NCBI GenBank assembly: GCA_015143295.1
Contig: CM026570.1
Coordinates: forward strand, 3,868,047 to 3,932,046
From: Tetracentron sinense
Taxonomy: Eukaryota > Streptophyta > Magnoliopsida > Trochodendrales > Trochodendraceae
Length of the DNA stretch: 64,000 bases
Direction of reading: 5' to 3'
Made by a program: the position numbers and the translations under genes. Positions 329-64,000 of this stretch are shown in pieces (the first letter of the stretch is position 1; each line of letters begins with the position of its first letter). The notes beneath the pieces were generated by a model. The model was not told where the DNA came from and searched no databases. It was given only the letters and a program-made list of their open reading frames with translations.

Positions 329-3300
329 TTTATTTTTTCAACTGCTGTTGATGGGAAAATTAAGGCCTGGCTGTATGACAATGTGGGTTCCAGAGTTGAC
401 TATGATGCTCCTGGACACTGGTGTACTACAATGCTTTACAGTGCTGATGGAAGTAGGTAAGATGAGAGAAAAAAAAAAAATATTAAGCTTAATAATCTGA
501 AAATCTTAGCTTTGATTTCTTATAAATATATTTTTCTGTCAATTTATACATACATGAGTTACAATTGATCCTTTCTATCTCAGATTGTTCTCTTGTGGGA
601 CAAGTAAAGACGGGGACTCTTTCCTAGTTGAATGGAATGAAAGTGAAGGATCAATAAAGAGGACGTATTCTGGATTTAGAAAGAAATCAGCTGGTGTTGT
701 ACAATTTGACTCGGCAAAGAATCACTTTTTGGCTGCTGGTGAAGATAACCAGATAAAATTCTGGGACATGGATAGTATCAACATTCTCACAAGTACAGAT
801 GCTGAGGGTGGACTCCGGGTCAGCATTCTATAATTTTTTGATGTGTTTTTTTATCTGACAAACACTTCAACATTTCAATCAGATCCTTGACATCATCACT
901 TTGATTTCTTCAGACTCTTCCGTGTTTGAGATTCAACAAGGAAGGAAATCTTCTTGCTGTTACTACTGCTGACAATGGATTCAAGATCCTTGCAAATGCT
1001 GATGGTCTCCGATCTTTGAGAGCAATCGAAAGCCGATCTTTTGAAGCATTGAGAACTCCCATTGAACCTGCTGTAATTAAGGTTGCAATGTTCTTTTTCT
1101 TCTTATTTATATAGAAATTTTTTCCTTTTAATTTTTTTACATTATGGGATCTATAGAAACCTCTCCTAGAAATGTTGTGTTTGTATATCAGGTTTCTGGT
1201 GCTACTGCAGTTGCAAACATCAATCCAGTCATTAGTAGAGTTGAACGTATTGACAGAAGCTCTCCTACCAGGCCTTCTGCTATTCTTGTATGTCAGATTA
1301 TTTAAAATAGAAGTTTACCTATGTTCCTTTAAAAATGATGTGTGTTAGTTACAGAAATAACTATGACAATTTAGGGAAAAAACATCTTGCTCTTTCTTTG
1401 TGATGCGTTGCACTAAACAGAGACCAAATTACTGATCAATATAATACCAATAAAAAATTATAGAAATGTAGCTAAAAAATAAAAGGATAGTTTGTGTTGA
1501 GGTTATTCTAATCTAGAACACCTCTTAATTTTTTTCTTCATCTAAAGTCAGACTCTTGATGCTTATGCTGCTCTTATGGTAGGACTCTTCCTCAGTACCA
1601 ACTTAATAAAAGTCTCATCTATTGGACTCTTGATATTGCTCTTATGGTAGGAATCTTAGTTACACCAATTCTGGATACATATTCTTATGCCTCTCATGTT
1701 TACCTAGTTGTTAAATCCAAATCGAATCACAAAATCGTAAGAGGGTAGATTTAATTTAAATTGGGATCCAAATAATAGATCGAAGGATTCATTGTGATAT
1801 TTTAAATGGTTGGTAAAAAAAATACAAAAAGTATGTAATAATTCAGAAACAATTAACTATACATCTAATTTCATGCATATCTATGAAATTGAAACCAAGT
1901 AATGAGCATTTCCGGTCCATACATTCATAGATTCCGCTGAATGACTTCTATGTATTGATCATAATTTCCTAACATCATAGTCCAAAACTTCAATCAATTA
2001 AAGTGAATCCATACAATAAAAAACAAAATAGGAACACGTTATATGCGTATATATATATAAATTAAATCAATGACTCGCACAAGGTTTGGAGATATTTCCT
2101 CTCTCGATTGGGAACTAGCTGGGTGTTTCCTCTCTCCTTCCGGGACTCCTTATCCTGTAAGTTCTCGGTGCGTTTGGGGGAAGAGGGCTTTGAAAGGGGC
2201 GCTATGCTTTTCACCTCCGTTGCTTGGTCCCTTAGGATTGAACGGAACTCGAGGGTCTTTGAGAACTCCCTCTCCCATTCATCAGTACTTGTCTACGGGC
2301 TGCTCATCTTCTACAACATTGTTGCTCCACCCTAGAGAATTTTGACTCAGCATGGCTCTACTTTTTGTTGTAACAGCAAGCTTTCTTTTAAATTTCATCA
2401 TTGTAGTGCTGTTATTTCCATTTCTAGCAGGGCCTGGGCTCACTCCCTTGTGACCCCTCGCCCACCTTGTATTTCATTCTCAAATCAATTTATCTCTCCT
2501 ATTACCGATGAAAAAAAAAGACTCCATCATCAATCGTCGTCTGGAGGACTAATAAGATCATCCTCTTAAGTTCATCCCCTTAATCTATATATTCAGAAGC
2601 CGATGTGGAAACATATTCTTCTTCCTGGATATTTCCTTATAATTTCCCTTTCTCTTTCCCCTATCATTGTTTGTTATAACATTCTTGTTAGACTTAGTAG
2701 GGGACTTGTAGTATACTTCAAGACTATAGATATTAGAAAATAAGTATTTATATTATAAAAATTAATAACCAATGTACAAATTCAGTGTTCATATCTCATT
2801 GTCTTTGATGGGCTTTACTAGAATCTTCTTCCTCTTGAAAACACTCATTTATGTCTAGCTCTAAGGTGTTATCCGGAAGATCTGGATCATCCTTTTCGGT
2901 AATCCACTCATCATTCAAACTTCATATCCTATAACCATATTGCACCAAAATCTTTCTCCCCTCCCCTTATTGAAGCTTGAGTTGCATATTGTACTTAACA
3001 ACTACAAAATCATAAACATTTTTTTGTTCCTGTCTATTCCTGTTTTTTTTTTCTTCATATGTAGCTTCATGTTAATTAATGAGTAAACATTGTTATGTTT
3101 GTACCAATGTTTTAAAACGTGAAGGCGTGAGGCGAGGCATTAGGACCTCAAGATGTGTGAGGTGTAAGCCTCACAAGAAACCTTCATGCTTTCTAATTTT
3201 AACAAATAAATAAAATATAAGAAAATTTGTAAAAAAATTTAAAACGTTAATGAAATATTATAGTATATATATACACATATATACATAGAGAGATACATTT

Positions 3301-17293: not shown

Positions 17294-20200
17294 ATGAAGA
17301 GTCTAGTAAGTACGTTGTTTAATTTAATTTCTTTCTTTCTTTTTTTGCTGATTCTCGATTTTTCAGGATTTGGGTGTTCGAAAGTTCTGTTATTGTAGTG
17401 TTCTGATTCCTTTTCAGAATTTAAATGTGGGTATTCGGATTTTGGTGCTGAGACTGATTTTTGAAGTGTTTACTTGACTATAATTCATTGAATATTTCAT
17501 TTTGGGTGTTTAGAAATCTACTTTTGTGGGTCGTGTAGACTTTTTGCTTTTGGGAGTAATTTTCGATATGGGTACTGGATATTTAATTTTTTAAAAAAAT
17601 CTTTTTTTGATGGTGTGCTGTGTAGATTTTGCAAATTTTGAAGTGATTCTCGATATGGGTATTGTGGTTTTAATCAAATTTGTGTTTTCTCTTTTGTTGT
17701 TTGCGACTGTTGACTTTTTTTTTTCCTTCTGCCTTGTTTGATCTTGAGTTCTTGATTTTTTGGTATGTTCTTGCCCTTTCAAACTGGTGGTCTTGCGTTT
17801 GGGGAATTCTGTTATGTTTTTGTTTTCTTCTTCATGATTATAGATCATCAAAATGCTACTTTTTGAGGGTGTTTTTGTTTGTAGTTATTTACCTTGCTTC
17901 TTATTCATATTAACAAATTTAGTTCTATCTTTTGTTTCTTGTGTCCTATTATCTACTTTCCATTTTTTTTTTCTTCTGAATTTTTTGAGCCACACGTCTT
18001 ATTTTCCATCTGGGATCACAATTTCTGCTTCAAACAATTATGTGATTGAGTTATACAGTTTCACCTCACCATATATATGTATGTATGTATTTAACAGAAT
18101 GGTATTTAATTCTGTTATATATATATATTCCATTACTTTTGAAATTGACTCGAATTTCCTTGAATTGCCTGTTGTTCATCATATGATTTATATAATGCGA
18201 CTTAACACGTTCAATATCTTTTGATAGTTCTTGTGAGTCGAGTAATTCTTTAATTTATGTTTCCTTTCTGAGTTTTTTTTCCCTCCAGGAGCTTTGTTTA
18301 TTTTACTTGTGGACTTGTGGTAATCCTAATATATCAGTTTCAATAGTTCTCAGAATCCAGACTGAGAGTGTGGCTTGTTTGGTCTTGCCCAATTTCCTTT
18401 TCAGATGAAGTTCTTTGCCCCCCTTAATTTTTCAGTTGTCCTTGCAAATTTTGTTGATCAATTCCTTTTTTCCCCCTGATTTGTATAGTAATACAGCTGG
18501 GTATGAAGCTTGTCTTAATTGTGATGACAGCTTTTTTTTTTCCCTGTTTCCTTGTGAATTGCTTATCAGCATTAATGGATTCTGGAACATAGAAACTATT
18601 CTTAGAGTTTGTCTGTTGTTTTTTCCTCCCACAATTTTAATTTTATTTTCAGGTGGCACTGCTTTTGCTTCTAGCACTGAGCAATACTGTTGAAATTAAT
18701 GGAGAAGGGAGTGACGGGCAATGCAAATACAAGCGGGATTTGGACCCCAGACCTCACAGTGTGTCCATCTTGGAGTTTGGGGCAGTTGGGGATGGGAAAA
18801 CATTGAACACAATTGCCTTCCAGAATGCTGTTTTCTATCTCAATTCATTTGCTGATAAGGGTGGCGCTCAGCTGTATGTGCCACCAGGCAGGTGGCTTAC
18901 AGGAAGTTTCAATCTTACCAGCCACCTCACACTCTTCTTGGAAAGAGGTGCCGTCATTCTTGGATCTCAGGTCTTTATTCCTTCTCTTGCTTTTCATGGT
19001 TTTATTTATTTTTTCATATTCTTTTCACCCTAAGGGTCTGTTCTTTTGCGGAGACTTATAAAGTCCAGAACTTTGCAAGTTTTGTTAATGGACAATTTGC
19101 ATTTTCTCTCGAGAACTAGATGTATCGAATATCGATGCTTTTCATCTATTGGGTTTCAGCAAAATGAATGATTTCAAATCTCATAAAAAAGGGTAAGACT
19201 TGAAATCTCATGATGGTAAGAATTAATCTTGTTAAAAACCTCGACAAAGTGAGTCAAGTTTCCTACCAACTACATTGACTAAGTGTAAAGTGCCAAGCTT
19301 TATTAGTCTCAGCAAAAGAATGGACCCTAATGGAAGAATAAATATGAGAAACGATTTCTAATAGCACGAAAGTTGACAAATTTCCATAGTGGCATTTTGC
19401 CAGCCTTTGGACCATTGGCTAAGTGATCCCTCTTTCTAAAAGGCTCTGCATTGAAGAATTCTAGTATCCAGCAATGACTTTCATTTCATTAACTTCATCA
19501 TTCTCCATATTTGGTTCTTTTCTGCTCTTAGGTGTTCCTTTACCACCATTGAGGCCATGACATTTGTCAATTCAAAGCATTGGGCTTTTGGATTATATAC
19601 CCATCCCCTGTTCCTTATTGGATGGTAGTTTGTGCGTCTTAAAGTGTTAGACTTAGCAGTATGGTCTTGATGAGTAGATAATCCCAACAGCATCTTTTTG
19701 TGTTCTAAGCAGGTAGCGTGTACCGAACTCGCAACCTTGAAGTTGCAATTGAAAGCACTAAAGAAATTGAATTATGGGCCTGACTTGTGAAAACACTTTT
19801 GTTAGTTTATCCCTTTCATGGTCAACTTTGCCAAAGGCTATGAGTTCTGGTATTTAAGAATAAGGGGGGTATGGTATCAACTTATAGAGGTGTCCATACT
19901 CTATAGTATCTGTGGATCTAATAACAATATCTGAAGCCGATCCCAATTAGTCGAGATGCGACTTGGATGATGATGATATCAGTATCTGAAGCACCCTGGA
20001 TCCATTTTACTGGGTTTTCGTAGATCTTTACACTTATTTCCTTGCTCTTGCAGGATTCATCTCACTGGGAAATTGTTGAACCCTTACCCTCGTATGGTCG
20101 AGGGATTGAACTTCCAGGTCAAAGATACCGAAGCTTGATAAATGGATATATGTTAAATGATGTGGTTATAACAGGCAAGGATGTTTCTGAATCTCTAGTT

Positions 20201-22473
20201 TTCCTGCGTCTCTAAATTTCTGGTTTCCCTATTGACCTCTATTTTTTTTTGTGCCATCTTATGTTTGTCTCTCGTTTTAGTTATTAAATGCTTACAACTA
20301 TTAATTGGTCCAGGTGATAATGGAACCATCGACGGCCAGGGCTCAGTTTGGTGGGAGTGGTTCAGATCTCATTCCTTAAACTACAGCCGCCCTCATCTCG
20401 TGGAATTTATTGGCTCCAATGATGTTGTAGTTTCAAATCTTACCTTTTTGAATTCCCCTGCCTATAACATACATCCAGTCTATTGCAGGTATGCTGGCTA
20501 AACCCTTCTGATGTATGTACTACTCTGCCCCTTTGAATTCATATTTATTTGGATGTACTGCAGCGATGTGCAAGTTCAAAATGTAACAATTTATGCTCCA
20601 CCAGAATCCCCTTACACCAGTGGTATCGTTCCAGGTTTGTGATGATTCATGCACTCCCCACTTTTTGATGCATCCTGAAAAAACTTATTATGCATAAAGA
20701 TCTTTTATTTTGCATGTCCTGTTCTCACGTCTTGGGTTTGGATATTATATATTCACCTTTTTATCAAAAATGTATTGGTTTTACCTGAAATACATTGAAA
20801 CATATGCGATTCATGGTAACTGGTATGATGTTGCTCACTACAATATTGGGTAATTTAATGATCTTGGTATCCTTTAAGATTTGGGATTATTATCTGCGTG
20901 GACAAAGTTTGGATGATAACACAGTATAGTTTGAGTATTTGATGAAGTAGCAAGCAATAGGTGTATCATGAATGCGAGCAGCTCTTACATCGGAAAATTG
21001 TGGTGTATACATCATTAGGGAATGATTAACTTGTAAAATAGATGGAGATTCTATAGCGGTATTAAAATATCTTCAAACTTCTGCATAGTTACTATCAAAT
21101 CTTTTGCGAAAAACAAATAAATAGGAAAATTAATAATGGTGAAGATAAGATAAAACTACCCCCATTGGACAGAGTTTTTCAACTTGTTCTATGACCCAAG
21201 CTATTGATTTCCTCACCTCAATGAATTATAAGATCAACCCCCTCCCCCAGGGGAAAAAAAACTATTTTAATTAGACCCTCCAATTCTGCCCATCACCTAA
21301 TATAAGTTTGATCTATTATCATTTTTTTTACTACTGCTAAGCTGCCAGGCCATCATAAACACACTGAAAGCAAAGGTCTTTATTAACTTTTATGCCGTAG
21401 GTGTCTGAGCTTCTTTTTGATGAGCAGCAGCAGCAGTAACCGTCAATGTACTTAGTTAATGCTTTCTAGGTAAAAGAAGTAGAACCTAAATATGTTCTCA
21501 TGTCTCTGAATTGCAGAAATAGTTTAAATTTGAAAGGTTCGGAGTTTCTTGATGAACAGCAGTAACTGACACTCTACTTAGTTTTTGCTTTCTTGGCAAA
21601 AGACCTAGAACCTAAATATATTCATGTTTTCAAACTGCATAAATAGGAGCTGATTTGATAATGAGTCATAACCATGATAATGTACAGAGTCGCATTTGAT
21701 TCATGAATTCATCCTTCTATGTATTTCTGGTTACTCTTATTTGTGTGTGCATAAATCGTAGCACGAGAAGGGTTAACATTCGTAAAACTGTATTTTCAGA
21801 TTCTTCTGATAATGTATGCATTGAGGACTGCAGCATTAGCATGGGTTATGATGCCATTGCGCTCAAAAGCGGTTGGGATGAGTATGGCATCACCTATGGC
21901 AGACCTTCCTCAAATGTCCACATCAGGGGTGTCCACCTTCAAGCTTCATCAGGCTCTGGGCTCGCATTCGGCAGTGAGATGTCTGGTGGCCTTTCCAACA
22001 TACTTGTGGAGCGCCTCCGCCTATATGACTCATTCAGTGGTATCAAATTTAAGACTACAAGAGGCAGAGGTGGTTATATAAAGAATGTCCTTATATCGGA
22101 CGTGGAGATGGAAAACGTCTACATGGCAATTGGGGCCACGGGTCAATGTGGATCTCATCCGGATGACAATTTCGATCCCAATGCACTCCCGGATGTGGAT
22201 CGCATCACCTTGAAAAATGTGGTTGGCACAAACATCACTTTTGCCGGAAACTTTGCCGGAATCCAAGAATCTCCCTTCACCTTGATCTGTCTATCCAATG
22301 TCTCCTTATCAATCACTTCTGACCCTTCCACTTCTTGGGTCTGTTCAAACGTGTTGGGGTTCTCCGAGTCTGTGTTCCCTGAACCATGTACTGACCTCCA
22401 GAGCTCATATTCAAATTCTTCCTCAGCCTGCTTCTCCCTCCAATACCCTGATGGTCATGCTGCAGTCTTGTAA
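17294..22473 (+). CDS. GH28 polygalacturonase-like secreted glycosidase
   Basis: A glycoside hydrolase family 28 (pectinase-type right-handed beta-helix) protein, probably exported to the cell wall. Exons: 17294-17305, 18653-18970, 20054-20174, 20314-20488, 20564-20634, 21800-22473. They give 456 residues, a usual length for the plant clade. Residues 1-23 (MKSLVALLLLLALSN...) form a signal peptide. SILEFGAVGDGKTLNT opens the beta-helix. FLNSPAYNIHP, IEDCSISMGYDAIALKSGW, GLAFGSEMSGG and GIKFKT follow. The classic catalytic motifs NTD, DD, GHG and RIK read here as SDN, Y249-D250, GLAFGS and GIK. That is, as I recall, shared by a non-canonical plant subfamily, so activity on polygalacturonan is not assured. 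The first coding exon is only 12 nt, and intron 3 uses a GC donor. No neighbour belongs to the same pathway. Confidence -1.
20175..20313 (+). other. GC-AG intron in the GH28 gene
   Basis: The exon ends ACAG and the intron begins GCAAGG. The acceptor is 'ggtccag'. Joining gives ACA-GGT-GAT-AAT, which continues the conserved ITGDNGTIDGQG text, so the GC donor is required by the frame. Confidence -1.
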
Positions 22474-51233: not shown

Positions 51234-54219
51234 TTTGGACAAGAAAACCAGAAATCTGATTTTTTTTAGAGAAATGTCTTGCAATATGTATGCACAAATG
51301 AATCTACTGGGTTGAGCCAGTTGGGGAATGGTTGTGAAGGGCTCTCGCAGAACATGCCCCGAGGAGTATTAACAAATATTATTAAGTAGATGATGATTAT
51401 GTTATTCTCATTAAAATTGTATTAAGTAGGAGACATGGGTTGAGTGACATACCTCTATTTCTGGAAACATTGGCGAGGATACAGAAAAAATGGAGGGAGA
51501 ATGGGTGAGAACAAGAGATTGATTTACTTCATGTGATTGGGGAGCTTGGAGAGTGAATGAAGAATCAGTAGCTGCATTTATTTGTACATGAGGAGGGAAT
51601 ATTTGAAAGGTGAAAGGTGTGGGACATGGAAGGAATCTAACTTTAGATAGATTGGGATGGGGTCGGTGCTTTTGTTTGGGATATGAGATACTGGGCCAAA
51701 GGGAATTTGCTTTGAGAAGGATGACCATTTATAATTGAGGTGTGTCTGGATGGATGGAATATCCAGAGCCGACCAAAGCTTTTAAAGTGAGCATGATCAT
51801 GGCTCTTTGTCAACCAAAACCGATGTAGCTTTTGGTGAAGGATAACCATTCTCTAGCATTCCTTCTTTGCTATAAGAAAATATAAATAAAAAGAAATGAA
51901 AATGTGGTACCTGTTTTTAATGAAATTTAGAGTGTAATATTTGCAGATTTTAATGGGCATGTATTTCTTTCATTTATGCAACCAGATAAACAAATTGTGA
52001 CTGTAGTGATTACGACATTAATTACACACATTTGTCGTGGTTATGTTTTGGTTAGGATAACCACTTTAACCGACCTCTTGTCTCCAATCTAGTTTGCCAA
52101 GTGGGCTTCATTGCATGTATAATTGTTAAGGTGATTAGGTGATAAACCCCATGGGTGCCTGAGGTGTCCCCTGAAGAACTCCTTGCACATAATATGAGAT
52201 TTGTATATGTTGCATTTCTTTGAATGAAGAGCCTTACTAATAATATATATTACAAAATTGTCATTGTCAAGATGCACTTTAATAGAACAATTATTGAATA
52301 CACTTCTGAGAATAATAAAGAGAGATTTCAAATGAGAAATGGAAAACAAACCCAAGGTCAACTTAGAAGCTGACCCCGTGATGTCATTGGTTCATGCCCC
52401 TAGGGTTAAGCAATCTAACCATGATTTTTAGAAAAATCATAAAACAAAATTATTAATTTTAATTTAATTAAAGCTTAACCATGGTTTAAAAGGTGTTGAA
52501 AGGGACACGGGTACTCAGGACTCATTTCAAATGGTGAGAATATAAAAAAAGTCTAACACTCATCGCTGAAAAGGGAGAGAGAGTGTAGGGATAAAACAAG
52601 AAAAAAAGTCTACATAGAGAGAGAGAGAAGTGTGGGATTGAATAAAGAATAAATTGTAACTGTCTTCTTCTCTTTTATTCATTTTTCATTCTTCTAGTTT
52701 ATACCTAAGAAGATAATAAAAAACACATAATAAGTAAAATATGTATAAGTCACACCTTAAATTATAAAAAAAACCTTTTAACAAGGGATTTATGAGAGAT
52801 TTAGGATCCTAGCCTAAAGAGATTTTAGAATATTTAAAGACATTTTTTTTTATTATTAGGCTACCTAGACCCAAATGTGCCCTTGGTCATCTAGGTGGTA
52901 GCTTCAAGCGACACAATTAACAACCATGCAAATAATCCACCCCACAAATAGAGGGAGAGAGAGTGACTAATTGTTCCACCAATTAAGAGAGGGCATGTTA
53001 GCTTGAGGGCAACATACTTGACACGGTACAATCTCTTCTTTTTTATTCTATTTACAAATATTTTTTTGTATATACAAACTCTAATATATTATATAGTAAA
53101 ATACATGATACACATATAATATGGTTTTTATTGACCAAACAATTATTTTCAAATAAAATAAATTTTATACTATTAAATAATAATAATATTACATTTATTA
53201 GATTTTTAATAATAATCCCTTAAGCGGGCAACGCCTGAACTTATCACAACATCTAGTCACCTAAGCGACCGTTTGAGGCAACGCCTTTAACAACCATGAT
53301 TGGACGGAACCTGAGGTATCCATGGATCCATCCCGAACCCAACCTATTTATAAATGAACTGAAAACCCAACCTAAAAGACCACTGGGTCGAAAACTTCAA
53401 CCGTAATATGTGAATGTTTCTCAACCTTGATCGGGCGTCTTTGTGAGCTAGTTTTTTTTTAGGTGAATGAAACAACACACACACAACACCCTCACACACC
53501 CGGTACTTAAACACACACAACACAGAAGGAATCATCCCACAATTCACCTCTAAAACCAGTACCGACCGTGGGAAATAGTGACACCTTAAGTACTAATACC
53601 CACATGCCCACCTGATCGAGATGCGGCTAGGCTCAAAAGAAGCCTAGATTTTTGAAATAATGTGTAATGCTTATAGTAGCAGCTATTACTAAAATATTAA
53701 ACCCTAATATTTTCGCTATTTAAGGCTTGTCCCATTGATTGTGTGTGTTTCTGACCATACTCTCATTCCGAGTTCCAGTTCACTTGTGCACTTCAGTTGA
53801 AATATCCACCTAGCCCTACTAATATTTGCTAACTTTGAGTCCATATAAAGGTCCTTTCTCTCACCAAGACCCTTTTGGTGAGATGAGTTGGGTTTAGAGT
53901 GTGTGTGAGCAGGTTGGCCTATGTGAGTGTGTGTTTTAACCATTCAACTTTTAGAAAAAACTAATATTTTTCCAGGTGGAACAAAGCCTGGTGTCACTAT
54001 GTCCGTAGTAATTTTTCTGGTAATTACTCCTTTCCCGATTGGTTCTCTTAACAATAGGAATAAGCATAGGGAATTAATGATTACCAAAAAAAGCAGAAGA
54101 ATGATCAACTCAAACTTATCCTCGCTGAGCTTGTATTAGCTGCATCCCTTAGCTACAGATTTTGATCGATATTAACGGTTTAACTCTAACTCAATAGTGG
54201 GGTTCACAAATCCAGCAAC
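51234..54219. other. Intergenic spacer between HIPP and the PR-10 region
   Basis: No coding family recognised. Half-degraded copy of the 'CACGTGTCC' MITE at about 52385-52515. AT-rich elsewhere, with GA runs near 52580-52630. Confidence -1.
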
Positions 54220-54823
54220 CAGGGGCGGAGCCAGGGGGGGGGCGGGGCCATGGCCCCCCCAATTTTTTTGTAAACCCTTCTTCTACTAGTATGAATTGTG
54301 GGCCCCTCAATTAAAAAAAAAAAAAATTAGTATACTTGGCCCCCCCAATTTTTTTTGTACTTTATAATATAATGGCCCCCCCAATTTTTTTTGTCATATA
54401 TAGTGGCCCCCCCAATGGAGTCCCCTTATGCCCTTGAGATTGCCACATGTCCCTATTGACACCCCTTAACTATGGTTAAAATTCACCCAATATCAGGTTT
54501 ACCTACTTGGTTTTTAGAAAAAAATATTTTAATAATTTTAACCTTAGGAGTTAGTGAATTTTAAACTAGGGTTCAAAAAGAAATTTGATATTTTTTTTAA
54601 AACCAAAGATAGGTGGGTGAATCTTAACCACAATTAAGGGGTATTAATAGGGACATGTGGCGACCTCAAAGGCATTACCGGGAAAAAAAAAATTTCAAAA
54701 TAAAAAAACTACCCCAAAAAATTTTTCTCGGCCGAATCCCCAAATTCCATACCCTTAAATCAAAATTTTTTTTATTTCAAGTATTTTGGCCCCCTCAATG
54801 AAAAATTCCAAGCTCCGCCCCTG
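54220..54823. mobile_element. hAT MITE (CAGGGGCGGAGC ends) with perfect duplication, carrying a nested MITE
   Basis: The left end CAGGGGCGGAGCCAGG and the right end (inverted) CAGGGGCGGAGCTTGG agree. The 8-mer CCAGCAAC flanks both sides (54212-54219 and 54824-54831). The interior repeats 'ggcccccccaatttttt'. A 'CACGTGTCC'-family MITE occupies about 54423-54674, so two insertions are layered, the inner one younger. Confidence -1.
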
Positions 54824-55143
54824 CCAGCAACTAAGCATGTGCCCTTATTGTGGGGGGTATCCCTAGCTAACTGGGCGTCTTCTAGGCAGTTCAGGCTTTA
54901 TGGTCCCTACAGCATGATTCTAAAGTGGCTCACAGTGTCAGTGATCAACATCATTCAATATGTGAAGCGCTGGGTAATATCCCAAGATCTAGATGGACTG
55001 CGCCATTTTTAGCAGAATCATGCATTAATCACTTCTGCAATAGAAAGATTACACCAGGGGAACTCTGGAAAAAAAAAGAAAAGAGGAGACAGACTGTTAC
55101 ATAAAAAGAGAGAGGGAGTAACTAGAATAACTGAACAAACAAA

Positions 55144-55388
55144 CTAAGCATCGACATCAGGGTTTGCCGAGAGGAAGGCTTCCACAACCTTGTAAATTTC
55201 CATGGCTGTGTGTGTTCTTGCCTTCCTCGATTTCCCCAGCTTCTTTCAACGTCGCGTCACCAGTGTGCGGTACTCACGCTTTTCATCTTACAAATGCATC
55301 TTCCATCATTAGAGGCCTCGAACTTAACCTCATAAGCAATTGATTCAAGTTTGTCCCCTAATACATCCCTTCAATCAAAGTGTGCAAG
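55144..55388 (-). pseudogene. Antisense fragment of PR-10 exon 2
   Basis: Read on the minus strand this is the C-terminal exon of a PR-10 gene: GRCICKMK-like text, then EEAGEIEEGK-like text, then YKVVEAFLSANPDVDA and a stop at 55146-55144. The frame is broken in the middle by small indels. Its upstream part stops where the hAT-like element begins. It points towards the PR-10 pseudogene on the plus strand, making an inverted pair. Confidence -1.
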
Positions 55389-55856
55389 TTCGCTACATAC
55401 TATAGTGAACCCGAATTGGTTCGTGGTTCGGTTCGGATTGATTCGTGAAATTGAGTAAACCACATAGTGGTTTCAAAACAATCTTAGTTTGTCATTTTTC
55501 ATTCAAATTCACTCATAATTTTTTATAGGTTTGGCAAATTTATATTTGAGTTCACAAATCGTTCATAAAAAGACATTTATTATTATTATTTTTCAATTAA
55601 GTATTTATAATATATTGTTTGCATGCTTAAAAGATATATATTTTATATTATAATATAATATAATATGATATAAAATATATATTTTGTTTTACATGCTTAA
55701 GTAGCGAACTAAGCTAGTGAACCAAACTAAAGAACTTAAGCAAACCGAAAAACAAATTATCTCATCCTAACCCTAGTGAACCGGGTTCACTAGATCTATA
55801 GTGGCGAATTGCGAACCGCTGACCCGAAATCGAACCGAGCGAACGAGGTAACATTG
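55385..55856. mobile_element. hAT-like element, left end lost, inside the PR-10 pseudogene
   Basis: It shares 'aagttcgctaYatRctat', 'gttcgtggttcggttcg' and 'gaacYgggttcactag' text with the complete element at 58055-58505. The right terminus GGTAACATTG is intact, but the expected CAGGGTTACC left terminus is missing. It is joined directly to the antisense PR-10 fragment. The insertion truncated PR-10 exon 1. Confidence -1.
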
Positions 55857-56280
55857 GTTGGAAGCATCAAACAAACCAACTTTCCTCAAGGTTAGCTACA
55901 AATTTTTGTTAAGACTCTAACAAGATTCTTTTTTTGGTTCTTAGGGTCATATATCACATAAGAATTTGGTTCAATATGCAGGTAGTCATTTCAAATTCTT
56001 GAAGCACCGAACTGACACGCTCAATAAAGAGAATCTAGTGTGCAAGTACACTTTGGTTGAAGGTGATGTACTGGGGACAAGCTCCAGTCCATTGCTTACG
56101 AGGTTAAGTTTGAGGCTTCAAGTGATGGAGGATGCGTTTGTAAGATGACAATTAAACCACTACCACTACCATACCAAGGGTGATGTCGAGCTCAAAGAAG
56201 AGGATACCAAGCACAAAGCGATGGGGATGTACAAGGTTGTGGAAGCCTGCCTCTTGGAAAACCCTGGTGTCTATGCCTAG
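55857..56280 (+). pseudogene. PR-10 pseudogene (exon 1 tail, intron and exon 2)
   Basis: 55857-55890 is the last 34 bases of exon 1 (GSIKQTNFPQ-like). 55891-55981 is a short intron with a TATGCAG acceptor. 55982-56280 is exon 2, ending TAG. The exon reads SHFKFLKHRTDTLNKENL and CKYTLVEGDVLG, then loses one base relative to the intact gene (ctgggg-acaagctcc), shifting the frame. A second small indel follows near 56148. Most of exon 1 is absent, so no functional protein is expected. Confidence -1.
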
Positions 56281-57039
56281 TGTTTCTTTGTCAAATTACT
56301 CTGTAGTATCCCCCATCCTTTCATCTAATTATGAGTCTTTGTGGCTTTTATAATAAAAAAATCTTCCTATTGTGATATTTTTTGTGATAGAGATATGACT
56401 GAAATGATTAGTTGTGATTCCATGAACTTGTGCGAGTATTTGAAAGATGTTAATCGAATAATAAATACGAAAACTATTGAGGGTATTCAAGCCACAAACA
56501 ATGCAATTTCAGTCACCTTCTTGTTGATGGTGAACAGATAAAAAAGGAGCAAAGGATAGTAATCTTGCTAGAGATCTGATTTGGTAGCTTGCGAATTATT
56601 ATTATGTTAGATGGCCGTGCGTTCCCATAATCTATGGGAACGCATTCGAATCATGACATAGTGAACATACCATTTTTCGATTGCTTATAGTAACATGTCG
56701 AAGAAAGGTATTATACATGGTTACCTTATAATTTGAAGTACTTCTCTTTGTTTTATTATCGGATTTTGCTATTGAGACCGTTCATAACAGTACTCAGAAA
56801 CTAAAAAAATTGCATGGGATTCAAAAAAATTGAATCCATGTTCTGTTGGGGCAATGTCCCCCTGGATGGTCTCACTAGCAAAATCATTTATTATATTGGG
56901 CTAAGATGAACTTTTCAATCACCCCATTCCCTGTACTTTAATACTATCAAAGATTCTTGTGATGCACGACCCTTGTGATGCAGAGTGAGTGATAAAAATA
57001 TATATAATAAATGCCACATAAATGATCAAGAGACTTGAA
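56281..57039. other. Spacer with no recognisable feature
   Basis: AT-rich DNA between the PR-10 pseudogene and a SINE. Open frames here look random. Confidence -1.
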
Positions 57040-57216
57040 TTTTTTTTTGTACAGGAGGGTGTCCCAAAGCCTTCGAGCCAAGGACTAATCCCTTCAGGGA
57101 TGCACACCGACCCACTCGGAATTTTCGCTACGAATATCAGGGTAAGTCAAGGAGTAAGAGTTGAACACACGACCACATGGATCAAACCCGGCACGCTAGC
57201 CAACTGCACCAACCAG
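57040..57216 (-). mobile_element. tRNA-derived SINE with 10-bp duplication (minus orientation)
   Basis: T run at 57040-57048, tail 'gggtgtcccaaagcc', and head on the minus strand 'tggtgcagttggctagcgtg' (box A) then 'cgggtttgatcc' (box B). The 10-mer GAGACTTGAA flanks both ends (57030-57039 and 57217-57226). 177 bp, complete. Confidence -1.
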
Positions 57217-57226
57217 GAGACTTGAA

Positions 57227-58054
57227 CTTTATTCGTGGTTAAAAATGAAACAGATTCTACAAATGTAAATAATATGTTAATAACATAGATATTTACATAT
57301 GGATTTGGGATACCAAAGGGTGGGATTATAATAAAGAAATTTGAAGTAATCCATTAAAGGTGTGTTTGTTTGACAAGAAAGTGATGGAAAATAAAAGAAA
57401 AATGAGTATTCTTGCACATTCTAGTGTTTGATGTAAAGAAAATGAATAGTGACAACTTTATCCCAAAAACTTTCCATTGTTATTTTAAAAGAAAATTTAA
57501 GTTTTTTTTTTTTCCTTTTCTTTTTCCTACCTAAGGTAAAACTGGTGGTACCCATGTCTCCCTATATTAGGAAAATAGTCTACAAAGAAAGAAGGATCAA
57601 CTGACTCTTGATGGTGACACTGAGATAAGTCATGGAGATGGTAAGAACATTGGAAATTAGGTCGAGATTGGGAGGTGCCTTTCTTTTTCTATGCATGATA
57701 TATTTCCTCCCCCAGTAGCCGGAACTTGATCTCAGGCGAATATTATCAAAGGGGCACACCTTGCCATCAGAGTTACAGGCACACTCATTTACAATATTGA
57801 CCAGCTCAACTCATCATGGCAGAGACTTTTGGAACTGCCGCTGTATACTTTTTTTTTTCTACTTATACTTAAATTAAAGAACTTCTAACAGAGCATTTGG
57901 AAAAAATAACACATGGGCAGTGGCGTGGTCAACCACAGCGGGTTTGCGTACAAGTTGAGACTTGGGTAGATGTTGAGACAGGACTCATGCGCAACCATGA
58001 CATAATGGGCCCATCCCCAATAACTTACTAGGATGGGTTTGACATACTTTAAAC
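57227..58054. other. Spacer with no recognisable feature
   Basis: AT-rich intergenic DNA; no gene or well-defined repeat found. Confidence -1.
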
Positions 58055-58505
58055 CAGGGTTACCAAGTTCGCTATATGCTATGGCAAACTGAGCGAACCT
58101 GAACTAGTTCGTGGTTCGGTTCGTGAAATTGAGCGAACCATATAGCCGTTTCAAAACAATCTTAATTTGTCAAATTTTTTTATTCAAATTCATTGATATT
58201 TTTTTTTAGGATCGGAAAATTTATATTTTGAGGTCACAAACCGTTCATAAAAAGTCATTTTATTATTATTTTTCAAATAAGTATTTGTAATACATTATTT
58301 ATATGCTTAAAAAATATATATTTTTATAATATAATATAAAATATATGTCTTGTTTTACATGCTTAAGTAGCGAACCAATCTAAAGAACCTAGCGAATCGA
58401 AAAACGAATTATTTTATCCTACCCCTAGCGAACCGGGTTCACTCTAGAGTGACAAATTGCAAACCCGAATTTTAATCGAGTGAACCGATGAACTAGGTAA
58501 CATTG
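58055..58505. mobile_element. hAT-type MITE, complete copy of the element in the PR-10 pseudogene
   Basis: The left end CAGGGTTACCAAGTTCGC and the right end (inverted) CAATGTTACCTAGTTC agree. The flanks CTTTAAAC (58047-58054) and CTTTAAAT (58506-58513) match at 7 of 8. 451 bp, no ORF. It lies about 1 kb upstream of the intact PR-10 gene. Confidence -1.
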
Positions 58506-58760
58506 CTTTAAATCATCCTATTCTAAAAACAAACCTTGATTTATGAGAGTAAAAAAGAGAAGCAAATTGTCTGTTTTTATCCCTGTGGTCAGGGGTGTTT
58601 AAAGTCAAGGATCAATTGTACAGTATGGATTTAACAACTGGATTTAACAAATGAAAAATTGATCCTGGCCCTTAAACACCCATGGTCATAGGGATAGACA
58701 CAGATGATTTGGTTCCGTAAAAAAGGTATATAAAGGTTAATGAAAAATAGACCATAACTT

Positions 58761-58891
58761 CTTTTTTTTTTGGAACGAGGTATACCGGCCTCTTAGAGCA
58801 CCCAACTAAGTCCTTCAGGCCGTGCACATCCCCTTATACTACACAACCAAGAAAGCTTGGTATTGGCCACTAGCCCATCCCCTCGTTGGTT
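58761..58891 (-). mobile_element. SINE copy with 16-bp duplication (minus orientation)
   Basis: T run at 58762-58771 and the tail 'ggaacgaggtataccggcct'. The flanks AAATAGACCATAACTT (58745-58760) and AAATAGACCCTAACTT (58892-58907) match at 15 of 16. The tail text resembles the SINE at 57040 ('cttcaggccgtgcaca' compared with 'cttcagggatgcaca'). The head is shortened. Confidence -1.
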
Positions 58892-59431
58892 AAATAGACC
58901 CTAACTTATATGTACGGCTTAGGATTGAGAGGTTTTTTTTATTGGATTTGGTTCAAGTTTGTCTTTTCTCGACATGTTTATAGACATGTCAAGTTCGAGC
59001 AGAGGATGGGCACTTGGCTCGAGTCGAACCCAACTCAACAAATTAGCACCCCTAGGACCACATCATAAGACTAGGACCGGGACAGGAATAACCTTTTTTT
59101 TTTTTGGTCACTAGGACAGGACTAACCTTACTTCCCCCAAAACAAGATGAATCCCGGCCCGGTCAGGCTAAGACCATGTACACCTCTAGACATGGGGATA
59201 CCTTTCAGAAGATCCGGCCCACGATATGGTTGGTCCCTTCTAGAAGAATGCGAAAACCCAAAAAAATAAAAAAACATTAGGCATCAAAGAAAGACTAAGA
59301 GGATTCAAAAAAAGTGGGTTGATCGGGTCAGGGTTCAAAGAAGTAAGCTTTACTTTGTTCCTGTTTGACTTTTTGGAGTATAAAATTCCAAGCCAAAAGG
59401 GACTTCAGTTTAATTATCATCACCATTTGTC

Positions 59432-59439
59432 TATAAATA
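59432..59439 (+). promoter_or_regulatory. TATA box of the PR-10 gene
   Basis: TATAAATA lies 110 bp upstream of the PR-10 start codon. This predicts a transcription start near 59465 and a 5' UTR of about 85 bases. Confidence -1.
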
Positions 59440-59548
59440 GTACCATTGTTCTTCACCATCTCCACCTCTCTTTTAAAATAAAAAGCCTATTAATACAATT
59501 AATCCCTCTTATTTTTTTTCTTAGATCGTTTTCTAGCTCCAAGAAAAC

Positions 59549-60763
59549 ATGGGTGTCACTTGCTTTACCCAGGAATTCACTACTCCGGTTGCTCCGGCTA
59601 AGATGTTCAAGGCCTTGATCCTCGACTCGCACAACCTCATCCCCAAGCTCATGCCTCAGTCCATTAAGAGCATCGAATTTGTTGAAGGAGATGGCGGGAT
59701 TGGAAGCATCAAGCAAACCAACTTCGCCGAAGGTTAGTTGTAGAAGATAGACTCAGTAGTGGTGCTGTCAATGAGCTGAGCGAGCTCGATTCGTCTTAGA
59801 ATGGCCAAGCTTGAGTTGGGTATTTGAGCTTGTTGAGCTGAGCCAAATCGAGCTAAGTGATTGAGCTCGTTTGTTAATCAAGCCGAACACAAGCAACCAG
59901 CGGCTCAGCTCAATTAATTTTGTTGTATTATTTATAATACCCTTATAATATTAGTTTTCACATAAAAGATGAAGAAACTTAAATATAATTTTTTGTATAG
60001 GTAAAACATGAAAGGTAACTTCATCTTTTAAAAACTTATAGATTCTCTATATCACGCTTCTTCAATTAGACTCCAGAGAATAACTATGTTCAGTACTTAC
60101 GGTTTTTTTTGTTTTTTTTTGGGTGAGAGAATCTGATGAGCATGTTTAATTCTTACGATTCTTATTTGATTTCTTTTTGTTAAAATTAAGGTAAATGAGC
60201 CTCAAATAATAGTGCAACCTTACGAGCCGGCTCTAGCTCGATTATCAATAGATGAGCTGAGCTCAAGCTAGCATTAGAGGGCTCGAATTGAGCTAGAGAC
60301 GAGCTTAAGCCAGCATATATATGTCACGAACTGAGCTTGAGTAACAACCGGCACAGCTCAACTCAGCTAGTTTACACCCATACTCAGTAGTCAGATTACT
60401 CAGTGCCATATATTAGATAAGAAGTTAACTTAGTGCCATATGTTTAATTTAGTTTAATATGCAGGTAGTCATTTCAAATACATGAAACACCGAATTGACG
60501 CGCTAAACAAAGAGAGCTTGGCGTGCAAGTACGCTTTGATCGAAGGTGATGTGTTGGGGGATAAGCTCGAATCTATTACTTATGAGGTTAAGTTTGAGGC
60601 ATCTGGTAATGGAGGATGTGTTTGTAAGATGACAAGTTGGTACCACACAAAACTGGATGTGGAGTTCAAAGAAGAGGAAATCAAGGAAGGCAAGGACAAA
60701 GCAATTGGGATGTACAAGGTTGTTGAATCCTACCTCTCCGAATACCCTGATGTCTATACTTAG
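59549..60763 (+). CDS. PR-10: PR-10 / Bet v 1-type pathogenesis-related protein
   Basis: A small cytosolic ligand-binding protein of the START/Bet v 1 fold, usually induced by stress or pathogens. Exons 59549-59732 and 60465-60763 give 160 residues, the standard family length. MGVTCFTQEFTTPVAPAKMF starts the protein. The glycine loop EGDGGIGSIK is at residues 46-55. YALIEGDVLGDKLESITYEV, then KAIGMYKVVESYL, is the typical second half and C-terminal helix. The intron sits after the first base of the Gly62 codon, the conserved PR-10 intron site. The intron is 732 bp; without a 621-bp insertion it would be close to 100 bp, as in most PR-10 genes. A TATA box is in place. Broken and antisense relatives lie on both sides. 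Ligand and inducer cannot be told from sequence. Confidence -1.
59761..60381. mobile_element. Insertion in the PR-10 intron with 10-bp direct flanks
   Basis: The 10-mer ACTCAGTAGT occurs at 59751-59760 and 60382-60391. The ends are imperfect inverted repeats: GGTGCTGTCAATGAGCTGAG, and from the right TGGGTGTAAACTAGCTGAGT. The subterminal text is rich in 'gagctcga/agctcaa' units. No ORF. Probably a non-autonomous DNA element; the superfamily is uncertain. Confidence -1.
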
Positions 60764-61303
60764 ATGGTTTTTGCTGAGCTAGTCTCTCCCTCTATTTACA
60801 TGTCAAAGTACTGCGGCTTTTCTTTTATTTATTTTTTCTTTGTACCAACTACCAACCATACATTTTGAATCATAATATGAACTTCCCTATTGTGATATAT
60901 TCTTTGACCTAGTCTGAACCAGAGATTCTGTATAGGCAACGGATTCTTTCTACCTGAGTATTACACTTAGGCATAGTTTCTTCAGCTGACATGTGGTGAG
61001 AAATAGGAGGAGAATAAAAAAATGTGGGAAAGATTGAAAAGACATGTGAAATTTTGATTTCTTCGCTAATTTCTCGCCACATGTTGGGTGAAGAGGCTCT
61101 ACTTGAGTGTAATACTTGAGCATCTGCTAGAGGAAATCCGTTGCCATCTATACCATATCAAATGTATTCTCAGGTTTCAACAACATGAATAAATAAGACT
61201 TGCTTAGAGGATTAAAACCTTGAGCCCTATATCTCGAACTTGGACTGCAAGTGTCATAAACCATGAGTAATAGTGTCATAAACCATGAGTAAAGGCCTCG
61301 GAT
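60764..61303. other. 3' flank of PR-10 and spacer
   Basis: Presumed 3' UTR, then AT-rich DNA. A short direct duplication of 'gtgtcataaaccatgagtaa' lies at 61250-61291, next to the element at 61304. Confidence -1.
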
Positions 61304-61571
61304 TGTCTCCGGCGAAGCCAGAAAGGGCTCTCAGGGTTCCATACATTGTACTACAGTTGGCATAAACATGGGGAGAAGTCATTTCATTTTCTCCCCATGA
61401 TTTTGACTTCTCCCCACTTGATATCTCTCCCCCTTATCCTCACACACTTATCGCCACATGTCTTATTATGTGTGGAGAAGTCAAAATCATGGGCCCCATT
61501 ATTTTGACTTCTCCACTTATCCCCTATTCTATGGAATCCCGAGACAAGCCCTTTCTGGCTTCGCCAGAGAC
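61304..61571. mobile_element. Inverted-repeat element with GTCTC-GGCGAAGCCAG ends
   Basis: The left end GTCTCCGGCGAAGCCAGAAA and the right end (inverted) GTCTCTGGCGAAGCCAGAAA match at 19 of 20. Inside, 'ggagaagtcaaaatcatggg' and its inverse recur. The flanks carry ATGAGTAAAGGC (61285-61296) and ATGAGTAAAAGGC (61572-61584), the left one separated from the element by 7 bases. A long duplication would suit a Mutator-type origin. 268 bp, no ORF. Confidence -1.
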
Positions 61572-61584
61572 ATGAGTAAAAGGC

Positions 61585-62104
61585 AGGGCTCTCTATAAGC
61601 CAAGCCCCACACTGACATAGACCCAGTTCCAGATTGACCCACAACTAGTAAAAAAAAATAAAAAATATATTTGCAAGAAAAGAGAATAAGTTAATCATAA
61701 TTTTGCAGCAAACTGAAATAGCCAAATTTTTTTGGTAACTAAAACCCTTGATTAACACTCACGTAATCTAGAGTATGTGGGAAAAAATAGGTAAGAGGGG
61801 TGGGAAAACAAGATAAACTGGGTCCTATTCGAAGATACCGGCAACTCAATCAAGTTCTCAAATGATAATCGAAACAAGGAGACCAAAATCCTTCAACCAA
61901 ATAGAAACAAAGAGAAATATTCAAGATGAACAAGAACAAAAAATTATACCTTTTTAATTTGTAAAGAAGATCTTACATGTGATTGTTCAAGATGAAAAGA
62001 GATGATGCGAGTGTATAAAACCCTCAACTTATATAGACATAAGCTACAACCACCTATTAAAGAAATACAAGATACTAGTACAAATGCATTGTCCCCAACC
62101 ATAG
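61585..62104. other. Spacer with no recognisable feature
   Basis: AT-rich intergenic DNA; no gene seen. Confidence -1.
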
Positions 62105-62281
62105 CCCTCTAACTTAACCTGGTAAGTAATCTTTTTTTTGGAAATAGATTACTTAACCTGGTAAGTAATCTATTTAAGCTTATTTACTAATTCATGGCCT
62201 TCAATTAAAGTGTGGTTGCACATGAAATTCTCTATGTCGAGTACCTGCGATTCAGGCTTTACATACATGAAACGACTAGCT
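62105..62281 (-). pseudogene. Second antisense fragment of PR-10 exon 2
   Basis: The minus strand aligns by eye with the first 130 or so bases of PR-10 exon 2: 'agctagtcgtttca', 'ctttaattgaaggccatga', 'aaataagctt', 'gattactta', 'ggttaagtt'. It is strongly diverged. A local duplication repeats 'acttaacctggtaagtaatc'. No open frame remains. Confidence -1.
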
Positions 62282-62570
62282 ACATATAGACCCAACAAAA
62301 CATGCTTGTGTTACTTATTGTTAAATATATGGCATTATATGCGAACCACAGCTTTGTTGAGTTTTTATCTTATGTTGCTGACCTTTCAGTGAAGTTGACT
62401 TGTTTGAGGCTTCGTGTCATCCTTTAAGAAATTCTATGGTCGTTATAGATAATTTCATCCCGAAATTATCTTCAAAATACTTTTTCAATTAAATCAGCTT
62501 AGAACTTTATAAGATATTCTACAAATTCAAAAGAATGGACCAAATTCTCTTGGAATTTAGTGATCCCAAA

Positions 62571-62785
62571 AAAAGTTTAGGTTTTTTTGCTGGAGGCTTA
62601 TGTATGGTGTTCTTCTTATCGATTCTAATGTGCAATCCATCGGTAAAAGTATAGGTTTTTTTGCTGGAGGCCTATGTATGGTGTTGATCTTATCGATTCT
62701 AATGTGCAATAAAGTATAGGTTTTTTTGCTGGAGGCCTATGTATGGTGTTGATCTTATCGATTCTAATGTGCAATCCATCGGTAT
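62571..62785. repeat. Three tandem copies of a unit of about 70 bp
   Basis: The unit begins 'agtWtaggtttttttgctgg' and contains 'ggcYtatgtatggtgtt' and 'cttatcgattctaatgtgca'. Copies 1 and 3 end with 'atccatcggt'; copy 2 is truncated there. It lies just upstream of a LINE RNase H remnant and may belong to it. Confidence -1.
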
Positions 62786-62949
62786 CCCTATGGTTAGTTG
62801 CTACTCCTGTTGTTGTCGTAGGGATGATATTGAATCTTTAGAATATTAAAAGGTGGATAACTGAGATTGGTCTCTATACAAATAGAAAAGGTCTGGAGCT
62901 TTCCCCTATTAATATTTTTATTCCTCACATCAAAGTTTTATTTATTTAT

Positions 62950-63260
62950 TTATTGTTATTCATGTCAAGTGGTTTACACCTCCTCAAGGTAGACTGAAAT
63001 TAAATGTGGATGATGTTTCCAGAGGTAATCCGGGTAATGTAGTTGATAGAGGTGTTACTAGAGATCATGTAGGCAATCGTATAGCATCTTTCTATTCTTT
63101 TTATGGCCCTTTCAATAACCATATAGCAAAGACGCCTGATCTTCTAGATCTGGATAGTCTTACTTTGTCAAATTAGGTGTGGTTCATGTGAATGTGGAAT
63201 CGGATTCAAAAATTCTTGTGATTGCTTTGAATGATATATATAATCACTCGTCTTCTTAGT
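62950..63260 (+). pseudogene. RNase H domain remnant of a non-LTR retrotransposon (LINE)
   Basis: The translated text WFTPPQGRLKLNVDDVSRGN-PG, then RDHVGNRIASFYSF and, after a stop, VNVESDSKILVIAL follows the order of the plant LINE RNase H (RVT_3) domain: PP-G-K-N-D-G-GNPG, RD-G, and v-eSDs. Stops and shifts interrupt it, so it is inactive. No reverse transcriptase is visible upstream within the window. Confidence -1.
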
Positions 63261-63829
63261 ACTGAAACAAGCAGATCAATTGTTGCTCTTCTATGTGTCT
63301 TGTCAACAGAGAAGCTAATGAAGCTGTGAATTTACTTTAGTGACTATACATGTACATTATTATATATTTGTTGAGTGGAGATGGTCAACTTGAGCCCGGC
63401 CCGACTAAAAAAGGTCTGCATATCAAGCACATTTAAAACCGGGCCTAGCCAAGCCCAGCCCAAGCCTGGTTCGGCTCATTGACAGGTCCAATTGTGCCTC
63501 GCTTATACAGACCTGATGCGCTAAAGCAACCCCATAGTGGCTTATGGCTAGATTATTGGGGGCGAGGCATTAATCAAATACAAAAACATCAGGAGTCCAA
63601 GTCCAACAAAATGGTTTGATTCATTTTCATCCATGCCAGTTAATATGCTCAAGAGCTGGGAGTAGCCTGTAGTCAAAAGCTTGCAAAAAGTGTGGGGTTG
63701 GGAAGCCCATCAATAAGGCCCAGCCCATGTAAAGATAAAAAATGCATGCATGCACCCATACTTCTCAGTGTCCTGAAGTCTAGTCTGACATCACGACCAT
63801 TCAAGTATATCCATCGGAATGGACTTATT
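63261..63829. other. Spacer with GC-rich repeat
   Basis: No gene is seen. 63385-63490 holds 'cccggcccg' and 'gggcctagccaagcccagcc' text typical of short degenerate repeats common in plant intergenic DNA. Confidence -1.
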
Positions 63830-63846
63830 TCCTTGTTTTAGCTCTT

Positions 63847-63980
63847 TTTTTATTTTTTATTTTTTTGCACAGTTTAGCTAGTGGGTTAGTATCTGTTCTA
63901 CGAAAGGATGGGGAAATCACTACGCCCTGCATGAGACTCGAACCCGGAACACACTACCACTGGGCTATTCCCGCGGTGTA
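63847..63980 (-). mobile_element. Complete tRNA-derived SINE with 17-bp perfect duplication
   Basis: On the minus strand the head 'gggaatagcccagtggtag' (box A) and 'ccgggttcgagtctc' (box B) are near-ideal tRNA promoters. The T run from 63847 is the A-tail. TCCTTGTTTTAGCTCTT flanks both ends (63830-63846 and 63981-63997). 134 bp. A recent insertion by the perfect duplication. Confidence -1.
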
Positions 63981-64000
63981 TCCTTGTTTTAGCTCTTGAT

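Follow-up and report, generated by a model that had tools for sequence, protein, structure and literature searches.

Two decayed PR-10 pseudogene fragments, probably of separate descent, lie head to head at a truncated hAT-like element in Tetracentron sinense

The analysed stretch of the Tetracentron sinense genome (1.16 Gb), hereafter the window, comprises 64,000 nucleotides (C20:3868047-3932046) and contains a block at positions 55144-56280 in which an antisense PR-10 exon-2 fragment stands opposite an exon-1 tail, an intron, and an exon 2 in sense orientation, with a hAT-like element between them. Two fragments with broken reading frames are present, each has its own closest relatives elsewhere in the gene family, and the left end of the element is missing. 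The block very probably represents fragments of two PR-10 pseudogenes, decayed and of independent origin, that came to lie head to head in a birth-and-death cluster; the order of events behind this arrangement and the absence of a selected function are what we infer from these observations. As it is, the block serves as a worked example that the base rate of a tandem family with mixed orientation is needed before a regulatory role is proposed for one of its inverted pairs. The features to which the analysis refers are the following (positions in the window).

55070-55143, minus strand: remains of the left fragment's 3′UTR (the blastn match to the intact gene extends to 55070)
55144-55384, minus strand: left arm, pseudogene fragment of a PR-10 exon 2 that runs from about codon 84 through the stop and lacks both exon 1 and the 5′ part of exon 2
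55385-55856, no strand given: non-autonomous hAT-like element (spacer); right terminal repeat GGTAACATTG intact, left terminus YAGGGTTAC lost
55858-55890, plus strand: 3′ tail of exon 1 of the right PR-10 pseudogene, adjoining the right end of the element
55891-55981, plus strand: short intron of the right pseudogene (91 bp); GT..AG kept, by comparison with the splice sites of the intact gene
55982-56280, plus strand: right arm, exon 2 of a PR-10 pseudogene, which differs from other copies by two deletions (1 nt and 9 nt) and one 10-nt insertion
59549-60763, plus strand: intact PR-10 gene (exons 59549-59732 and 60465-60763), 160 aa, Bet_v_1 family

Both arms combine PR-10 homology with disrupted frames and were classed as PR-10 pseudogenes on that basis; the left arm contains stops in all three frames (3/3), the indels of the arms were read from the exon-2 alignment, and the native 5′ ends are absent from both fragments. 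The block had initially been described by a model from the letters alone (the sequence-only reading) as an inverted pair of exon-2 copies. Its sense exon 2 was recovered at the same coordinates and on the plus strand (55982-56280), and the hAT-like element and short intron, which it had placed in an interval of about 0.6 kb, do lie between the arms (gap 664 nt). The antisense fragment, given there as 55388-55144, was correct in PR-10 identity and strand but ends earlier, at about 55384: its stop codon occupies 55144-55146, and the PR-10 alignment runs to 55383. Likeness of the left fragment to the 3′UTR of the intact gene fades at about 55070-55100, and over 38 bp the right exon-1 tail is 87% identical to 59700-59737. 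The protein of the intact gene matches Pfam PF00407 (E 4.3e-26), with Fra a 3 and Pru p 1 as best solved matches, and its ATG at 59549 lies 3.27 kb downstream, close to the earlier estimate of about 3.3 kb. The intact gene and the right arm have plus-strand orientation, whereas the eight PR-10 loci found over the next 60 kb of C20 downstream all have minus-strand orientation. A third PR-10 exon-2 fragment (62080-62280, minus strand), far more diverged, follows downstream of the intact gene at a distance of about 1.3 kb, in tail-to-tail orientation.

The descent of the two arms was traced by searches and by phylogeny. A genome search with the left arm, in which 23 of 23 candidates were scored, gave 22 non-self matches; the best was C8:4113614 (80%), the intact gene of the window ranked fourth (76%), and the right arm only 17th (72%). 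Relatives of the right arm were drawn from four cluster regions and a search with the block (40 of 2760 candidates scored), and among the four cluster regions compared it is closer to positions 111681-112031 of the C20 cluster (78%) than to the left arm. The arms did not group in the tree, which comprised 24 exon-2 sequences, all from four clusters (C20, C8, C14, and C16). Constraining them to one clade cost 8.0 log-likelihood units (p-AU 0.0174, 24 rows), and 7.6 units when the divergent 62-kb fragment was left out (p-AU 0.015, 23 rows). This test was run after the tree had been seen and its p values are modest, which, together with the four-cluster scope of the tree, counts somewhat against our preferred reading.

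Substitution patterns were compared over the 228 sites shared by both arms. Relative to 20 other copies (62-kb fragment and C14_1237 omitted), 19 substitutions were private to the left arm and eight to the right, and none of them was common to both. At codon positions 1/2/3, private changes numbered 7/10/2 in the left arm and, over all right-arm sites, 3/5/2 in the right arm, the spread to be expected after loss of coding constraint. Scored against a leave-one-out consensus, six derived states were common to the arms, all of them also present in other copies, and single other copies share 3-13 such states with the left arm. Neither compensatory change nor gene conversion between the arms left a sign, and selection on arm pairing was looked for and not found. 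The inverted match between the arms ends near the 3′UTRs (55124 / 56302), which indicates that the intergenic flanks were not duplicated.

These results bear on the idea that the arms arose through one recent inverted duplication and form a proto-microRNA of the kind described by the inverted duplication model of microRNA origin. Head-to-head PR-10 segments joined by a transposon are what such an origin could leave behind, and the model, in the portion of PMC3237417 consulted here, extends to divergent segments and transposon-mediated events. Each arm, however, resembles several other copies more than it does its partner: the left arm is 72% identical to the right arm and 80% to C8:4113614, and the right arm likewise has a nearer relative in the C20 cluster. 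The arms are thus not each other's closest matches, share no flanks, and have no private change in common; with a common clade disfavoured, they do not appear to be inverted duplicates of each other, as far as the alignments and tree can tell. A recent inverted duplication was rejected on these grounds (right arm 17th of 22, p-AU 0.017 and 0.015), and we consider it extremely improbable.

The spacer belongs to a genome-wide repeat, of which 39 further copies at 80-87% identity were found among 40 scored candidates out of 2760. In a subset of the copies listed, i.e., eight besides the spacer (seven genomic ones and the one at 58055-58505), the element begins with YAGGGTTACC and ends with GGTAACATTG, or close variants of these, and 8-bp target duplications were recognised by eye in all eight (four exact, three with 7/8, and one with 6/8 positions identical). 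Judged by its terminal repeats and 8-bp duplications, the family appears to be non-autonomous and hAT-like. The copy at 58055-58505, situated between the pair and the intact gene, retains both ends and a 7/8 target duplication. At 54220-54823, about 320 bp from the left arm, a further hAT-like element was seen by eye; its terminal repeats resemble CAGGGGCGGAGC, and it carries an exact 8-bp target duplication (CCAGCAAC at 54212-54219 / 54824-54831).

The right end of the spacer is intact and sits in exon 1 of the right pseudogene; its left terminus is lost where the left PR-10 fragment begins, and no target duplication was seen by eye at the spacer. The simplest history would be insertion of the non-autonomous hAT-like element into exon 1 of the right copy and, later, a deletion or rearrangement through which the element lost its left end, the right copy the remainder of its exon 1, and the left copy its 5′ half, so that the remaining pieces were joined. 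The junction between spacer and left arm was placed near 55384/55385. Matches to three of the 39 element copies extend slightly past it, to 55370 or 55374, a point against our account insofar as the true breakpoint may lie a few bases away. Alternative hAT transposition produces inversions. An aberrant event of this type could have acted on a PR-10 segment at the element's left end, inverting or duplicating it, and the breakpoint does coincide with the lost left terminus, but a simple deletion across the left end yields an identical junction. We regard such an event as unlikely, although it would be a variant compatible with two decayed fragments of separate descent.

The sequence-only reading had further proposed that a transcript crossing the block folds into a hairpin. 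In this scenario, a read-through transcript pairs arm to arm, Dicer-like enzymes cut the stem to 21-24 nt siRNAs, and PR-10 mRNA is lowered. The alignment of the two arms and the intact exon 2, which it had suggested as a check, gave ungapped identities of 81.8% between the arms, 81.1% between left arm and intact exon 2, and 83.4% between right arm and intact exon 2. The arm alignment spans 273 columns (198 matches, 44 mismatches, and 31 gap columns; identity over 242 ungapped columns) with a longest exact run of 19, and among its 253 windows of 21 columns none was perfect, seven had at most one difference, and 30 had at most two. When the block was folded as RNA, 180 of the 241 left-arm bases were paired with the right arm on the plus strand and 188 of 241 on the minus strand (180-194 arm-to-arm pairs), interrupted by bulges. 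Hence, a stem would form on either strand, but the length claimed for it, about 240 bp, was generous.

Isolated arms co-folded at −280.0 kcal/mol, compared to a mean of −131.3 (SD 4.7, minimum −142.7) for 50 dinucleotide shuffles of the right arm; pairing between the arms is beyond chance. A perfect duplex of the left arm would reach −495.5 kcal/mol, so that the co-fold attains about 56% of the perfect energy. The block also has the dimensions required in PMC2708354, namely a stem of more than 100 bp and a loop of less than 2 kb. With stable pairing and these dimensions, the objection anticipated in the sequence-only reading, an arm identity too low for stable pairing, does not hold, and the stability of the stem is itself a point that our preferred reading has to accommodate. 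This pairing is not particular to the two arms. Among nine partners tried with the left arm, of slightly unequal length, co-fold energies ranged from −277.3 to −311.9 and the right arm ranked sixth (−280.0), i.e., the left arm pairs with other family copies about equally well as with the right arm. No match to a known RNA family, microRNAs included, reached the Rfam gathering score in window positions 53000-64000, and assignment of the block to a known RNA family was rejected accordingly.

The four clusters, window included (204 kb in total), were surveyed for inverted pairs whose arms measure 100 bp or more and lie no more than 2 kb apart. This yielded ten inverted pairs, some overlapping, of which three consist of PR-10 on both sides: one each in C20 (the block itself), C8, and C14, and none in C16, i.e., in three of four clusters. 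Their co-fold energies were −282.2, −271.9, and −258.2, and opposite-strand PR-10 pieces within 2 kb of each other occur in all four clusters. Given this family base rate, the block resembles an ordinary by-product of cluster turnover, and the recurrence of such pairs speaks against a hairpin locus. A PR-10 array with pseudogenes and mixed orientation is likewise found in grapevine, where, according to the part of PMC3095314 consulted, 13 of 17 copies of the cluster on chromosome 5 are in direct orientation and three pseudogenes lack a matching expressed tag; in contrast to the proposal for the present block, that text makes no hairpin claim. One of the other surveyed pairs (L021:2322-2536, plus strand, and 3088-3299, minus strand; 76% over 221 columns, gap 551 nt) has one arm inside an open exon 2, and the longest uninterrupted helix of its read-through hairpin comprises 36 pairs, at a smaller energy (−258.2). 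It is arguably a better hairpin candidate than the pair at 55144-56280.

Targeting potential was assessed with 21-mers. Exact 21-mers shared with the nearby intact exon 2 numbered 0 of 228 for the left arm and 0 of 289 for the right arm, against the hairpin scenario; in its favour, 20 of 228 and 43 of 289, respectively, fall within two mismatches. Across 21 family copies (62-kb fragment and the other arm omitted), exact 21-mers were found in four copies for the left arm and in ten for the right, one of them being C20_104048 of the same array, with exact sharing of up to 30 nt (C8_19806) and up to 28 nt, respectively. As exact 21-mers exist in other copies and not in the intact neighbour, other PR-10 genes would be the likelier targets.

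Two plant systems were used for comparison. In rice, the consulted portion of PMC2708354 describes an inverted pseudogene pair, one of two tabulated cases, that yields small RNAs; its arms are 83% identical, the duplex spans 185 nt, and the loop measures 1,283 nt. Like the present block, the pair is made up of paralogous pseudogene fragments that occupy opposite strands no more than 2 kb apart; unlike here, where the evidence is sequence, small RNAs were mapped there, and its loop exceeds the 664 nt found here. A dismissal of the hairpin for low identity alone was therefore rejected, and the rice pair counts against reading the block as mere debris. In the same text, 38 gene-pseudogene pairs have complementary small RNAs, and in 21 of them gene and pseudogene are no more than 10 kb apart, compared to 437 of 11,956 pseudogenes overall, which suggests that closeness to an intact relative, as seen here, is where such cases occur; this, too, weighs against our preferred reading. 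For the parent gene of the 83% pair, however, that text notes no detected small RNAs, and 53.4% of the antisense siRNAs of candidate pseudogenes were 24 nt long (PMC2708354).

At the soybean I locus, the consulted portion of PMC3804491 describes two perfect 10.91-kb inverted repeats with whole chalcone synthase genes, whose trigger is 82% identical to the down-regulated targets and shares no siRNA longer than 20 nt with them, silencing probably proceeding through one- or two-base mismatches. The likeness lies in inverted copies of family genes and in trigger-target identity (82% there, 81-83% here), and the difference in the arms, which here are broken fragments of about 240 bp with 82% ungapped identity. 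As a precedent, which the sequence-only reading had invoked, chalcone synthase is thus fair with regard to the target and weak with regard to the trigger (PMC3804491). Taken together, the rice and soybean cases mean that neither identity nor position rules out silencing. Among the titles and abstract openings listed, with subscription journals mostly uncovered, no precedent for PR-10 small RNAs or hairpins was found.

Hairpin silencing at the block is structurally permitted, and to that extent possible, but unsupported: both sides lack native 5′ ends, and no private change in common points to maintained pairing. As an explanation of the block we judge it very unlikely. It is a long shot, too, that the block is transcribed and that its small RNAs damp part of the PR-10 array, making it a silencing locus at an early stage, put together at a broken hAT element from two different paralogues and not through inverted duplication of one gene. 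If this were so, two separate paralogues within an array of plant defence genes could supply the parts of a hairpin trigger. With two decayed fragments of separate descent as the preferred reading, the locus is presumably silent, and small RNAs, if any, would most likely be siRNAs of 24 nt that act in cis, on the transposon and on the two fragments.

Two observations concern other parts of the window. At 18641-22473 (plus strand), reading frames resemble, from their translation, what we take to be a glycoside hydrolase family 28 (polygalacturonase-like) gene. Past the intact PR-10 gene, inverted repeats with 65- and 26-nt arms at 60957-61116 and 61304-61572, respectively, may be small foldback transposons.
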